Shown in pieces: positions 39,600 to 43,998 of a stretch of 64,000 nucleotides of DNA; positions within the stretch are counted from its first letter, which is position 1; every line of letters begins with the position of its first letter. A program made the translations under genes and the position numbers. Location: NCBI GenBank assembly GCA_025056215.1, contig JANWWC010000006.1, positions 1-64,000 of the forward strand, written 5' to 3'. The notes beneath the pieces are model-generated. The model ran no database searches. It was given only the letters and a program-made list of their open reading frames with translations, and had not been told where the DNA came from. This DNA is from Cytophagales bacterium (GTDB taxonomy: Bacteria > Bacteroidota > Bacteroidia > Cytophagales > Flammeovirgaceae).

Positions 39600-39899
39600 T
39601 TACTTTTTTTTCTTTTTAAACATTTCTAACATCCTGTTTGTAACGGCAAACCCTCCTACGATGTTGATAGTAGCCAGTAAAATACCTGCTGCCCCGAGTG
39701 TAAGATTTAAGTAATCAGTAGGTGGGCTTTGTCGGATGAGCAAAATGGCTCCGATTACGCAAACTCCTGAGATAGCATTTGCTCCCGACATTAAAGGAGT
39801 GTGCAACACTGTAGGAACTTTTCCGATTACTTCCATTCCTAAAAAAATTGCAAGCACCAGGATGTAAATCAACTGAAGATTAGAATTGATGAATTCCAT
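39600..39899 (-). CDS. pntAB: NAD(P) transhydrogenase alpha subunit, membrane part (PntAB)
   Basis: 99 residues, mostly hydrophobic with about three helices: NLQLIYILVLAIFLGMEVI, then VPTVLHTPLMSGANAISGV (the conserved TPLMSG.NAISG of this family), and a last helix followed by a Lys-rich tail. In split transhydrogenases this is the membrane half of PntA. It is 10 nt downstream of the soluble half. The beta subunit (PntB), which should come next, is absent: the next gene is the GH42 beta-galactosidase. The enzyme couples hydride transfer from NADH to NADP+ to proton flow. Confidence 0.92.
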   Translation of the reverse strand: MEFINSNLQLIYILVLAIFLGMEVIGKVPTVLHTPLMSGANAISGVCVIGAILLIRQSPPTDYLNLTLGAAGILLATINIVGGFAVTNRMLEMFKKKKK

Positions 39900-39909
39900 A
39901 TTTTGAAGA

Positions 39910-41013
39910 TTATTTTTTATATAGCATTTCTCCGCTTCTCACTACTAAAGAAGATTTTAAAATTTCGTTATTGAGATCATAAACAAAGTTGCCTTCTTTA
40001 TCTGTAAACATTTTTAAAAAGTTGAACAAATTTCTTGCAAATAGTTGGCTGGCATGCTGAGGCATTTCAGAAGCTAAGTTAGAGTTTCCTACAATAGTGA
40101 CGCTGCGATGAGTAATGACAGCGTTGTTTTCTGTAAGCTCGCAATTGCCACCCGTAGAAGCTGCAATATCGACAATCACTGAACCAGGCTTCATAGCTTC
40201 GACGGTTTCTTGAGTTAAGAGAATAGGAGCTCTTTTTCCGCGAATTTGAGCTGTACAAATCACTACATCAGATTTAGATGCGTGTTGGTGAATGAGTTGG
40301 CGTTGCCTTTTTTGATATTCTTCTGTTTGCTCTACTGCATAACCTCCTGCCGATTTGTCGTCTCTTGCTCCTTCTACTTCTACAAACTTTGCTCCTAAGC
40401 TCTGGACTTCGTCGCGAGAAGCAGCACGTGTATCAAAAGCTTCGACTTTTGCACCTAATCTTTTGGCAGTAGCAATAGCCTGCAAACCTGCCACTCCTGC
40501 TCCTAATACCAGCACTTTAGCGGGTGGAATGCTTCCTGCAGCAGTCGTAAGCATTGGGAAGTATCTAGGAAGATATTGAGCTGCTGTAAGAACAGCTTTG
40601 TAGCCTGCAATAGACGCCATCGATGAAAGCACATCCATCGATTGCGCCAATGTAGTGCGTGGAATCATATCTAGGCTCACTGCTGAAATGCCTGCTTTTG
40701 CTACTAATTCAGTAGCGTGAATGTCGAAGTAAGGTTGGAGTAGAGTAATAAGGAGCGCGCTTTTTTTAAGAGAATATAACTGCGTATTATTGAGAGGGTG
40801 AAGGGTAATTAAGATATCAGCTTGTTGTAACACTTCGTCTTGGTTGGTTATTTTCGCGCCTGCATTCTGATATTCTTCATCGCTAAAATAAGCTCTTCTT
40901 CCAGCATCCTCTTCAATCAGTACGTTGTATTTTAAAGAAATAAGTTGTTTTACTACCTCGGGTACTAATGCTACACGAGCATCTTGTGGTTCGTGAATAA
41001 CTCCGATAAACAT
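39910..41013 (-). CDS. pntAA: NAD(P) transhydrogenase alpha subunit, soluble part (PntAA)
   Basis: 367 residues. NAD(H)-binding domain I of proton-translocating transhydrogenase, related to alanine dehydrogenase. Seen: EPQDARVALVPEVVKQL at the start, SLDMIPRTTLAQSMDVLSSMASIAGYKAV, the Rossmann loop VLVLGAGVAGLQAIATAKRLGA followed by AFDTR, RDKSAGGYA-like DDKSAGGYA (mobile loop), and PGSVIVDIAASTGGNCELT. Length fits a split alpha subunit. A consensus promoter lies upstream. See pntAB for the missing beta subunit. Confidence 0.95.
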   Translation of the reverse strand: MFIGVIHEPQDARVALVPEVVKQLISLKYNVLIEEDAGRRAYFSDEEYQNAGAKITNQDEVLQQADILITLHPLNNTQLYSLKKSALLITLLQPYFDIHATELVAKAGISAVSLDMIPRTTLAQSMDVLSSMASIAGYKAVLTAAQYLPRYFPMLTTAAGSIPPAKVLVLGAGVAGLQAIATAKRLGAKVEAFDTRAASRDEVQSLGAKFVEVEGARDDKSAGGYAVEQTEEYQKRQRQLIHQHASKSDVVICTAQIRGKRAPILLTQETVEAMKPGSVIVDIAASTGGNCELTENNAVITHRSVTIVGNSNLASEMPQHASQLFARNLFNFLKMFTDKEGNFVYDLNNEILKSSLVVRSGEMLYKK

Positions 41014-42183: not shown

Positions 42184-42777
42184 TTAATTCTTTAAATTGT
42201 ACTTTAAACTTTTTTTCCATTTTAAATATCCATACATGGCTAAGATCGTATATATTCCATATAAAACAGCAGTAAGAATTAGTCTTTTTTGAAGATACAA
42301 GTATATGCAGACAATATCTGTGATAAACCAAATAATCCAGTTTTCTATTCTTTTTTGAGTAGTGAGCCAGGTTCCTGCTAGGCTAAACGAGGTGATAAAA
42401 GCATCAGTATAAGGAAAAGTATTTTTGGGTACGTACTTTTGCATCAAGAATCCTGAAATCCAAGTGCTTATTATCGAAAGAAATATTAGAATAAACAGTT
42501 CTATAGCAGGAGCTTTTGTTACAGGTAATTTGCGGCACTCTGCTTGTTTTTCAGGATTTCCATAAAGCCAATGATAATAACCATAAATGCTCATTATTAA
42601 ATAAATCACATGCAGCAAAAAATCAGCGAACAAAAAAACCTCCCAAAAAACGAATAGATAAGCCAAAATGCTGATAATTCCTAAAATCCAGCCCTCTGCT
42701 TTTTGCTGAGTATTACAGTAAATAGAGATTATACCTGTAAGTGTACCTATTACTTCTACAACGCTAAGTAAGCTCAT
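42184..42777 (-). CDS. pnuT: PnuC-family vitamin transporter, probable thiamine transporter PnuT
   Basis: 197 residues with about seven membrane helices. PnuC-family marks: VVEVIGTLTGIISIYCNTQQKAEGWILGIISILAYLFVFW at the start, IMSIYGYYHWLYGNPEK, and RIENWIIWFITDIVCIYLYLQK, where the Trp-rich segments line the substrate path. PnuC carries nicotinamide riboside, while relatives carry thiamine (PnuT) or riboflavin. Here the gene is second in a unit led by a TPP riboswitch and overlaps the preceding gene by 4 nt, which makes thiamine the likely substrate (inference from regulation). Confidence 0.85.
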   Translation of the reverse strand: MSLLSVVEVIGTLTGIISIYCNTQQKAEGWILGIISILAYLFVFWEVFLFADFLLHVIYLIMSIYGYYHWLYGNPEKQAECRKLPVTKAPAIELFILIFLSIISTWISGFLMQKYVPKNTFPYTDAFITSFSLAGTWLTTQKRIENWIIWFITDIVCIYLYLQKRLILTAVLYGIYTILAMYGYLKWKKSLKYNLKN

Positions 42778-43841
42778 GTGAGTTTATTATGCTGAATGTG
42801 TTCGTTCAATTCTCTGATTTGTTTCCAGGTCCACTGTTTTTTAGGTAGTACATCTTGATAAGCTTTTTGATAGAATTCTATTACTGTTTTCTCTAAATCA
42901 TCAGGATGAATCGATGAAGATGCAAATAAACGCTCATACGGATTTGCAAATTTTTCTTTCCTGCTTAAGTGCTGATTTTTAAGGCGCAGCATTGCTCCTC
43001 CTTCTGTAATTTTGTCGGCCTCCCATGTAAAGCCAGAATCTTCTTCCTGGTTCAGCGTCTGTGCCAGGGGAGCGAGATTTGCTCTTGGAAAAGTAGGTCG
43101 GCTTACTAAATCTATCCAAGTTACGTATTTATATTCTAGTTCGTATTGACGATGATTGTAGATGCTTAACACCGCATCGTATCCTTTTGTAGCACTAAAA
43201 AGAGCGTAATAATGCAAAGGTTGCGGCGTTCGAATTACAACCAAACCAATGTTAGGGTATTTTTGAATATTTGAATTTGAGCTATATAATACATCACAAT
43301 CTGCTAAAACTTTTTCAAATTCGTCTTTCCATTCATTCTTATATTCGTTAATGTGAATAAGCATTTGGGAAAAAGCAGGAATGAAGTACATAAACTTGGA
43401 AACACATGCTTTCGTTTCCTGCTTAGCGCCAAAAGGAGGGTAAAACAGTTTCTTTTCCAAAGCGTTCAGCAAGCAAACTACCTTCAGACCTTCTATAGCA
43501 TCAGGATTTTCTACATCGAATTCTCTAAAATCTCCGATTAGTGCGGCTTGTCGCAAAATATTTTCAAACTTCAAGGCTATTTCTGGGTAAAAAAGAGCCC
43601 ATACACCTAAAAATCCATCTACATCGAAGTGAGTAGCTGTTACGACTTTTATTTCATCAAGAGCCGAAATTTGTTGTTGAAGAGCGTTTAACACGATTCC
43701 CGCACTCGTGTCATCAGCAAAAGGATGAGTATTAAGTCCTTTCCAATGAGAAAGGACGAAAGCATTTGGAATGGATGTTCCATCTACCATGATAGCGGGA
43801 AACGAAACTTCATGTAAACCAATGAATTCCTTTTTGTGCAT
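42774..43841 (-). CDS. DUF6687 family protein in a TPP-riboswitch operon
   Basis: 355 residues, soluble, no signal peptide. The N-terminal pattern IMVDGTSIPNAFVLSHWKG...ADDTSAGIVLNAL fits DUF6687 as I recall it. A DHH-phosphoesterase-like metal motif THFDVDGFLGVWAL (H71, D73, D75) is followed by LIGDFREFD (D104), and a second-half motif of DHH enzymes is not clear. Function unknown. Control by a TPP riboswitch and a 4-nt overlap with the PnuT gene suggest a role in thiamine salvage, for example as a phosphatase or pyrophosphatase on thiamine phosphates (inference). In other Bacteroidota, pnuT is often paired with thiamine pyrophosphokinase; that gene is not here. Confidence 0.75.
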   Translation of the reverse strand: MHKKEFIGLHEVSFPAIMVDGTSIPNAFVLSHWKGLNTHPFADDTSAGIVLNALQQQISALDEIKVVTATHFDVDGFLGVWALFYPEIALKFENILRQAALIGDFREFDVENPDAIEGLKVVCLLNALEKKLFYPPFGAKQETKACVSKFMYFIPAFSQMLIHINEYKNEWKDEFEKVLADCDVLYSSNSNIQKYPNIGLVVIRTPQPLHYYALFSATKGYDAVLSIYNHRQYELEYKYVTWIDLVSRPTFPRANLAPLAQTLNQEEDSGFTWEADKITEGGAMLRLKNQHLSRKEKFANPYERLFASSSIHPDDLEKTVIEFYQKAYQDVLPKKQWTWKQIRELNEHIQHNKLT

Positions 43842-43906
43842 ACTTAAAAATTATTTTAAACTTAAAAAACACTGCACAAAAAGAAGAACATAAAAAGGAT
43901 AAGCTC

Positions 43907-43985
43907 CACAAAATTCCTTCGCAGGCATTACCCTGTTCAGGTATTGAGGGTATATTCTCAGCCTTTTACAGCACCCCTTTTTGTG
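43907..43985 (-). promoter_or_regulatory. TPP (THI-element) riboswitch
   Basis: The minus-strand RNA carries all conserved blocks: GGGGTGC, then GGCTGAGAATATACCC, then ACCTGAACAGGGTAATGCC, then GCGAAGGAA. P1 is CACAAAA pairing with TTTTGTG (43985 side with 43907 side). The optional P3a arm is absent, making a compact aptamer of about 80 nt. It lies 65 nt before the DUF6687 ATG and likely controls translation or transcription of DUF6687-pnuT in response to thiamine pyrophosphate. Confidence 0.95.
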
Positions 43986-43990
43986 ATTCA

Positions 43991-43998
43991 CAAAAATA
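43991..43998 (-). promoter_or_regulatory. -7 promoter element of the TPP-riboswitch operon
   Basis: Minus-strand TATTTTTG, full TAnnTTTG match, ending 6 nt before riboswitch P1. It predicts transcription starting at the riboswitch 5' end. The -33 region is only T-rich. Confidence 0.55.

Follow-up and report, generated by a model that had tools for sequence, protein, structure and literature searches.

The DNA analyzed here is a 64,000-nucleotide stretch from the genome of a Cytophagales bacterium (hereafter the window), which carries on its minus strand a TPP riboswitch aptamer followed by two overlapping genes. The aptamer (43897-43988) is a full-length match to covariance model RF00059 (67.4 bits, above the gathering score of 54.3; E = 4.3e-11; model positions 1-105 of 105), in agreement with the complete minus-strand aptamer described in the original prediction from the sequence. 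Just 5' of the aptamer match, on the same strand, lies TATTTTTG (43991-43998), the Bacteroidota-type -7 box that had also been pointed out and that fits the consensus TANNTTTG. Because the motif is common, with 109 sites in the window versus 84 expected, it constitutes weak promoter evidence on its own. The first gene (42774-43841, minus strand) encodes a 355-residue DUF6687 protein (PF20392, 386.3 bits, E = 1.6e-115, for a Pfam gathering score of 27), in which the stretches THFDVDGFLGVW and LIGDFREFD are found as originally quoted. The second (42184-42777, minus strand) encodes a 197-residue transporter of the PnuC/PnuT family (PF04973, 173.5 bits; NCBIfam PnuC model TIGR01528, 109.7 bits for a cut-off of 42.45), and the two reading frames share the 4 nt (42774-42777) already reported. 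Downstream of the pair, a methyltransferase-like gene separates it from minus-strand genes for parts of an NAD(P) transhydrogenase (AlaDh_PNT and PNTB_4TM, window positions 39600-41013).

Predicted translational control by the TPP riboswitch

Between the aptamer and the start codon, the leader contains an 11-nt core, CUUUUUGUGCA (43873-43883), that is the perfect complement of UGCACAAAAAG (43830-43840) at the start of the DUF6687 gene; a complement of this length was reached in 11 of 2000 shuffled leaders. The minimum-energy fold of the leader contains a 13-bp hairpin closed over the DUF6687 start codon (the predicted sequestor, 43828-43885, minus strand), with a stability of -15.6 kcal/mol by itself. 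This hairpin was no part of the original prediction. The CUUUUUGUGCA strand is also able to pair with CACAAAAAGGGG (43974-43985, minus strand), the 5' strand of aptamer helix P1, and this alternative antisequestor pairing is exclusive of the sequestor. Constrained folds of the leader with P1 forced (plus the sequestor) and with the antisequestor forced are nearly equal in energy (-42.2 and -42.7 kcal/mol, respectively), and the middle base of the AUG has an unpaired probability of 0.02 in the former versus 0.95 in the latter. In either forced state, the AUG has a largely accessible first base and a largely paired third base (unpaired probabilities of 0.05 and 0.00 for the third). Even when the antisequestor is forced, opening of the start region is partial (mean unpaired 0.43, versus 0.28). 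The stability of the whole-leader fold is modest, with a z-score of -1.6 and 15 of 200 shuffles as stable. The only other TPP match above the cut-off in the genome precedes a gene for a TonB receptor (L140:5380-7926, minus strand), and the minimum-energy fold of this second leader, evaluated without a shuffle comparison, also has a hairpin over candidate start codons.

Together, the folds predict a start-codon sequestor and a competing antisequestor as a candidate expression platform for the gene that follows, and we infer that TPP binding would shut off translation of DUF6687. With TPP bound, P1 would form and leave CUUUUUGUG available for pairing across the DUF6687 start codon, in which case neither DUF6687 nor the coupled transporter would be made; when TPP is scarce, both proteins would be made and free thiamine would be imported. 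The aptamer and the predicted leader folds lend support to the control of DUF6687 and the PnuT-like transporter by TPP, as originally proposed. In a study on Bacteroides thetaiotaomicron (PMC5613172), transport operons with TPP switches are described as little changed at the transcript level and the mode of action of the switches is called uncertain. Translational repression by TPP fits this small transcript-level change, and the window leader provides a specific candidate for how a TPP switch could act on translation in Bacteroidota, the phylum for which that study leaves the mode uncertain (PMC5613172).

Predicted fold and conserved residues of DUF6687

The structure of DUF6687 was modeled with AlphaFold2 from a 44-row alignment (mean pLDDT 93.8, pTM 0.91). 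Foldseek against the PDB ranked the exopolyphosphatase PPX1 (2qb6, E = 3.5e-4) first, as the sole match at E <= 0.001, with 2qb7, an NrnA homologue, DhhP, Rv2837c, Cdc45 and 6mtz (which matches an NrnA query by sequence) at ranks 2-10; TM values were 0.15-0.27 for ranks 1-9, and unrelated chains start at rank 13. VIA, which re-aligns Foldseek's own top 1000 only and for which a best Z of 7 to 8 is common without clear kinship, gave a best Z of 9.1 to the DHH domain of PF0399 (5yh1, 236 residues at 7.9 Å), followed by 8.5 to PggH (7d62) and 8.2 to NrN; the fold scores lie near what the tool calls middling. Rows across the whole model have rmsd values of 5.9-8.3 Å. Residues ~174-330 match many DHHA1 chains at ~3.0-4.2 Å over ~100-119 residues, and residues 1-171 align with 6mtz over 129 residues at 4.2 Å. 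Nearly all of the 50 VIA rows are DHH/DHHA1 or Cdc45-type proteins, judged by title, and it is because they represent one superfamily that we find the DHH-like reading of the model persuasive. With the same model and program, ranks 1-3 in BFVD were annotated as a phosphohydrolase, a DHH family phosphohydrolase and a DHD superfamily phosphohydrolase (probabilities of 0.98, 0.94 and 0.90), and no kinase was present among the better fold matches. The DHH-like character anticipated in the original prediction is thus recovered by Foldseek and VIA, with modest scores, and by BFVD. On the basis of the model, the C-terminal part of DUF6687 (~174-330) is predicted to be DHHA1-like and the N-terminal part (~1-172), more tentatively, DHH-like. 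A DHH/DHHA1-like fold of this kind would make the protein a metal-dependent phosphohydrolase.

Sequence comparisons, meanwhile, gave no link between DUF6687 and DHH proteins by phmmer, hmmsearch or Pfam and NCBIfam scans. PF01368 and PF02272 matched neither the window protein nor any of 44 family members at E <= 1, PF04263 (TPK_catalytic) did not match the DUF6687 protein, and hhalign of DUF6687 against 8 NrnA-type and 11 RecJ-type proteins (from the 19 of 25 DHH loci that gave a usable ORF) returned no signal, with shallow alignments (Neff ~3). DUF6687 is named in no paper of the literature searched, which likewise gave no precedent in work on PnuT, for a DHH or DHHA1 protein under a TPP riboswitch or for circular permutation in the DHH superfamily, and no viral relatives were found in IMG/VR scans. 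For this protein family of uncharacterised function, the model suggests both a fold and an enzyme class that can be assayed.

Residue conservation was assessed in 107 distinct DUF6687 proteins, comprising 112 locus proteins and that of the window with identical sequences merged. D20, H32, H71, D73, D75 and D104 are each retained in 105-106 of the 107 and are candidate metal residues, judged from this conservation; E107 and W273 are invariant. Within the HxDxDG-type motif I, H71 is kept in 106 proteins, D73 in 105, D75 in 106 and G76 in 98, which upholds the DHH-like metal motif (H71/D73/D75) of the original prediction at the level of sequence. The chief exception is the L010 copy, from which most of the candidate metal residues have been lost; the L083 protein is cut short, and D73 is replaced in L017. 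The alignments contain SHW at positions 31-33 but no literal Asp-His-His motif III, and no GGGH of DHHA1, and DUF6687 is therefore described here as DHH-like by fold and not filed as a member of the superfamily.

Read by eye, motif II corresponds to D20, motif III to H32, motif I to H71-x-D73-x-D75-G and motif IV to G103-D104, with vvD ... lsHW ... DDTSA resembling motifs II and III, and IGDFREF motif IV, of the NrnA rows. This reading suggests, but does not prove, that the DHH domain of DUF6687 may be rearranged, with the order II-III-I-IV instead of I-II-III-IV. In hhalign, block-permuted alignments (which are shallow) gave no higher scores than the natural alignment, and the rearrangement idea is therefore without profile support.

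Genomic context of DUF6687 and the thiamine route

PF20392 is present in 8 of 395 genomes of the phylum and 28 of 241 genomes of the order. A contig scan retained 80 of 178 DUF6687 relatives with flanks of up to 8 kb, a set from which the window's own genome was perhaps left out and which shares some species with a second set of loci (L003-L035). DUF6687 lies near both pnuT and a TPP switch at one of the 80 loci (L057, from Nafulsella turpanensis), and a TPK-like protein follows within 6 nt at two (L057 and L102), so the link to thiamine genes that had been expected elsewhere in the family is largely not borne out. The TPP switches in this set were sought by pattern, matches besides L057 being judged false by eye, and cmscan at the gathering score on 10 of the 80 loci gave no TPP match; in the L003-L035 set, with ~1.5 kb flanks, the window's own switch is the only match above the gathering score (0 of 32 non-own loci). 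When neighbours were clustered at 79 of the 80 loci (L058 was dropped, and one or few members per family were annotated), they included an opposite-strand gene family (48 loci), an HNH-like protein below curated cut-offs (44), a universal-stress-like protein (36) and a nicotinate phosphoribosyltransferase (25). The last lies upstream of DUF6687 and is encoded on the opposite strand; it adjoins DUF6687 in 23 cases, and its annotated member is from Pontibacter. This phosphoribosyltransferase neighbour (L080:6380-7843 and 24 more loci) hints at a link to NAD metabolism. Each of the four loci belonging to other phylum families (L007-L010) shows the gene order Rieske-QueG-DUF6687-thioredoxin reductase-like. 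In a 30-row family tree, the window DUF6687 forms a lone branch, apart from the Cesiribacteraceae pair.

The Nafulsella locus contains DUF6687, pnuT (identified by blastp), a NadR-like kinase, a TonB-receptor-like gene and a TPP switch that contains a long insert and stays under the gathering score at 37.4 bits (E = 1.2e-4). It resembles the window in bringing together DUF6687, pnuT and a TPP switch, with a TonB receptor gene, within ~5 kb. It differs from the window in that the switch lies directly 5' of the TonB receptor gene, a terminator-like hairpin (recognized by eye and not listed by the terminator scan) stands between the TonB gene and DUF6687, and DUF6687 is followed by a TPK-like protein without catalytic motifs. 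The Cytophagales TPK-like proteins of this kind (L057:9072-9704, L102:9086-9727 and 13 further rows) keep an N-terminal SSHHxV...QEPA but no longer have the GDFD, DKTDLEK and DH motifs; of the 26 aligned TPK-like rows, 15 are degenerate and 11 intact. From their sequences, the degenerate proteins are possibly non-catalytic thiamine binders or regulators.

The window's genome is 99.5% complete. It has no match to PF02581 (ThiE) or to PF04263 (canonical TPK, although a strongly diverged TPK could escape the profile), and it encodes ThiL (326 bits) and a NadR-like AAA_28 kinase (123 bits), the latter next to a gene labeled LpxK-like by eye and not on the contig that carries pnuT. The missing TPK of the original prediction therefore holds as far as PF04263 detects, but is not specific to this genome: of the 241 order genomes, 211 have no PF04263 match at E <= 0.001, among them every one of the 28 DUF6687-positive genomes, and 183 of the 211 also lack DUF6687, hence the absence of TPK does not mark DUF6687. 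Among the 30 best-scoring Cytophagales pnuT loci (L178-L207), an AAA_28 homologue is encoded in the fetched flank of 24, and in at least 4 of these it does not directly adjoin pnuT. Thirteen pnuT loci chosen from the window's own family include 8 with an AAA_28 homologue, 4 of them in a longer, NadR-sized ORF, and 5 in which none was found; some own-family PnuC proteins may therefore transport nicotinamide riboside. At three loci (L057, L215 and L224), pnuT and the kinase neighbour the same type of TonB gene, which is preceded by a TPP switch in L057 and L224, and L224 is the one of 16 other pnuT-containing stretches scanned with a TPP match above the cut-off. The short NadR-like AAA_28 kinase near Cytophagales pnuT is a candidate kinase for thiamine or for nicotinamide riboside. 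By its TPP riboswitch control, the window transporter is a putative thiamine importer of the PnuT type, and imported thiamine is most likely phosphorylated by an enzyme other than DUF6687, with NadR-like AAA_28 as the best candidate, followed by ThiL. These observations raise the question of how thiamine is phosphorylated in Cytophagales that have no detectable canonical thiamine pyrophosphokinase.

A possible association between DUF6687 and thiamine auxotrophy was also considered. PF02581 (ThiE/TenI) exceeds the cut-off in 15 of 40 DUF6687-positive genomes versus 15 of 21 negative ones (Fisher p = 0.016), in a hand-picked comparison with 14 of the 21 negatives from one family; within family f3, the proportions are 11 of 25 and 1 of 3 (p = 1.0). 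The association was rejected as confounded.

Interpretation and comparison with known systems

The explanation we favor, at a probability of roughly 55%, is that the TPP riboswitch represses translation of a two-gene DUF6687-pnuT operon and that DUF6687 is a DHH-like phosphohydrolase recruited to the thiamine regulon here. The near-middling fold scores and the 5 of 13 own-family pnuT loci without the kinase neighbour hold this probability down; also counting against the explanation are the missing sequence link to DHH, the nearly equal energies of the two leader states and the single TPP match among the 16 other pnuT stretches. The ancestral role of DUF6687 would probably not be thiamine-specific, its place in a thiamine-salvage regulon having been acquired in this lineage.

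The strongest competitor, which we nevertheless consider doubtful, is that DUF6687 is a general nucleotide or RNA phosphodiesterase whose position in the operon reflects a chance insertion with no role in thiamine metabolism. Thiamine genes are absent from the neighbourhood of most relatives (where four other families recur at 48, 44, 36 and 25 of the 79 clustered loci), the DHH relatives act on nucleotides according to the titles of the VIA matches, and PF02581 does not track DUF6687 within f3. However, the predicted sequestor uses the start codon of DUF6687 itself, which is more than a passive neighbourhood, and the thiamine-salvage neighbourhood recurs in Nafulsella.

A narrower proposal, close to one made originally, is that phosphorylated thiamine (TMP, TPP or another form) is the substrate that DUF6687 hydrolyses, so freeing thiamine or controlling its pool. 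This is a special case of the favored explanation, and the odds of the two therefore overlap; taken by itself, we judge it unlikely. The riboswitch control and the predicted phosphohydrolase-like fold are consistent with it, as are the second thiamine neighbourhood in L057 and the TPK-like neighbour in L102. Against it stand the rarity of such neighbourhoods (pnuT with a TPP switch at 1 of 80 loci, and no TPP match at the 32 non-own loci), the position of the gene between QueG and the thioredoxin-reductase-like gene in 4 of 4 loci of L007-L010, and the consideration that a TPP hydrolase made only at low TPP would be wasteful. Its more elaborate form, in which a rearranged DHH protein (motifs II-III before I-IV) under TPP-switch control would hydrolyse phosphorylated thiamine and so balance the pool in a thiamine-importing bacterium, is less probable again. 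The reading of DUF6687 as a non-homologous thiamine kinase or pyrophosphokinase in the missing TPK slot, originally suggested from its place between the switch and pnuT (where B. thetaiotaomicron has a pnuT-tnr3 pair; PMC5613172) and compatible with the undetected ThiE and canonical TPK, was rejected as highly improbable, given the DHH-type better fold matches, the 183 order genomes lacking both TPK and DUF6687, and the presence of ThiL and of a NadR-like AAA_28 kinase of the type common beside pnuT.

Returning to DUF6687 as a recruited DHH-like phosphohydrolase, its predicted structure resembles, in structure comparison, the two-part fold of the DHH/DHHA1 phosphohydrolases (PPX1, NrnA, DhhP, PggH, PF0399 and NrN), and its sequence has their HxDxDG motif and conserved acidic and histidine residues. 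It differs from them in its apparent II-III-I-IV order and in that neither a literal DHH or GGGH nor any sequence similarity to them could be detected. Canonical DHH domains have more than three strands, and the N-terminal part of the DUF6687 model, with three, has fewer. The pnuT-AAA_28 neighbours of Cytophagales involve the same transporter family as the window, with the difference that here the AAA_28 gene is on a different contig than pnuT. The closest parallel for the operon is B. thetaiotaomicron, in which, according to PMC5613172, separate TPP-switch operons likewise serve a TonB-type receptor (OMthi) and PnuT (pnuT-tnr3), and pnuT likewise has a partner gene beside it; in the window, unlike in B. 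thetaiotaomicron, that partner is DUF6687, it lies upstream of pnuT with no tnr3 after, and the genome has no PF04263 match.
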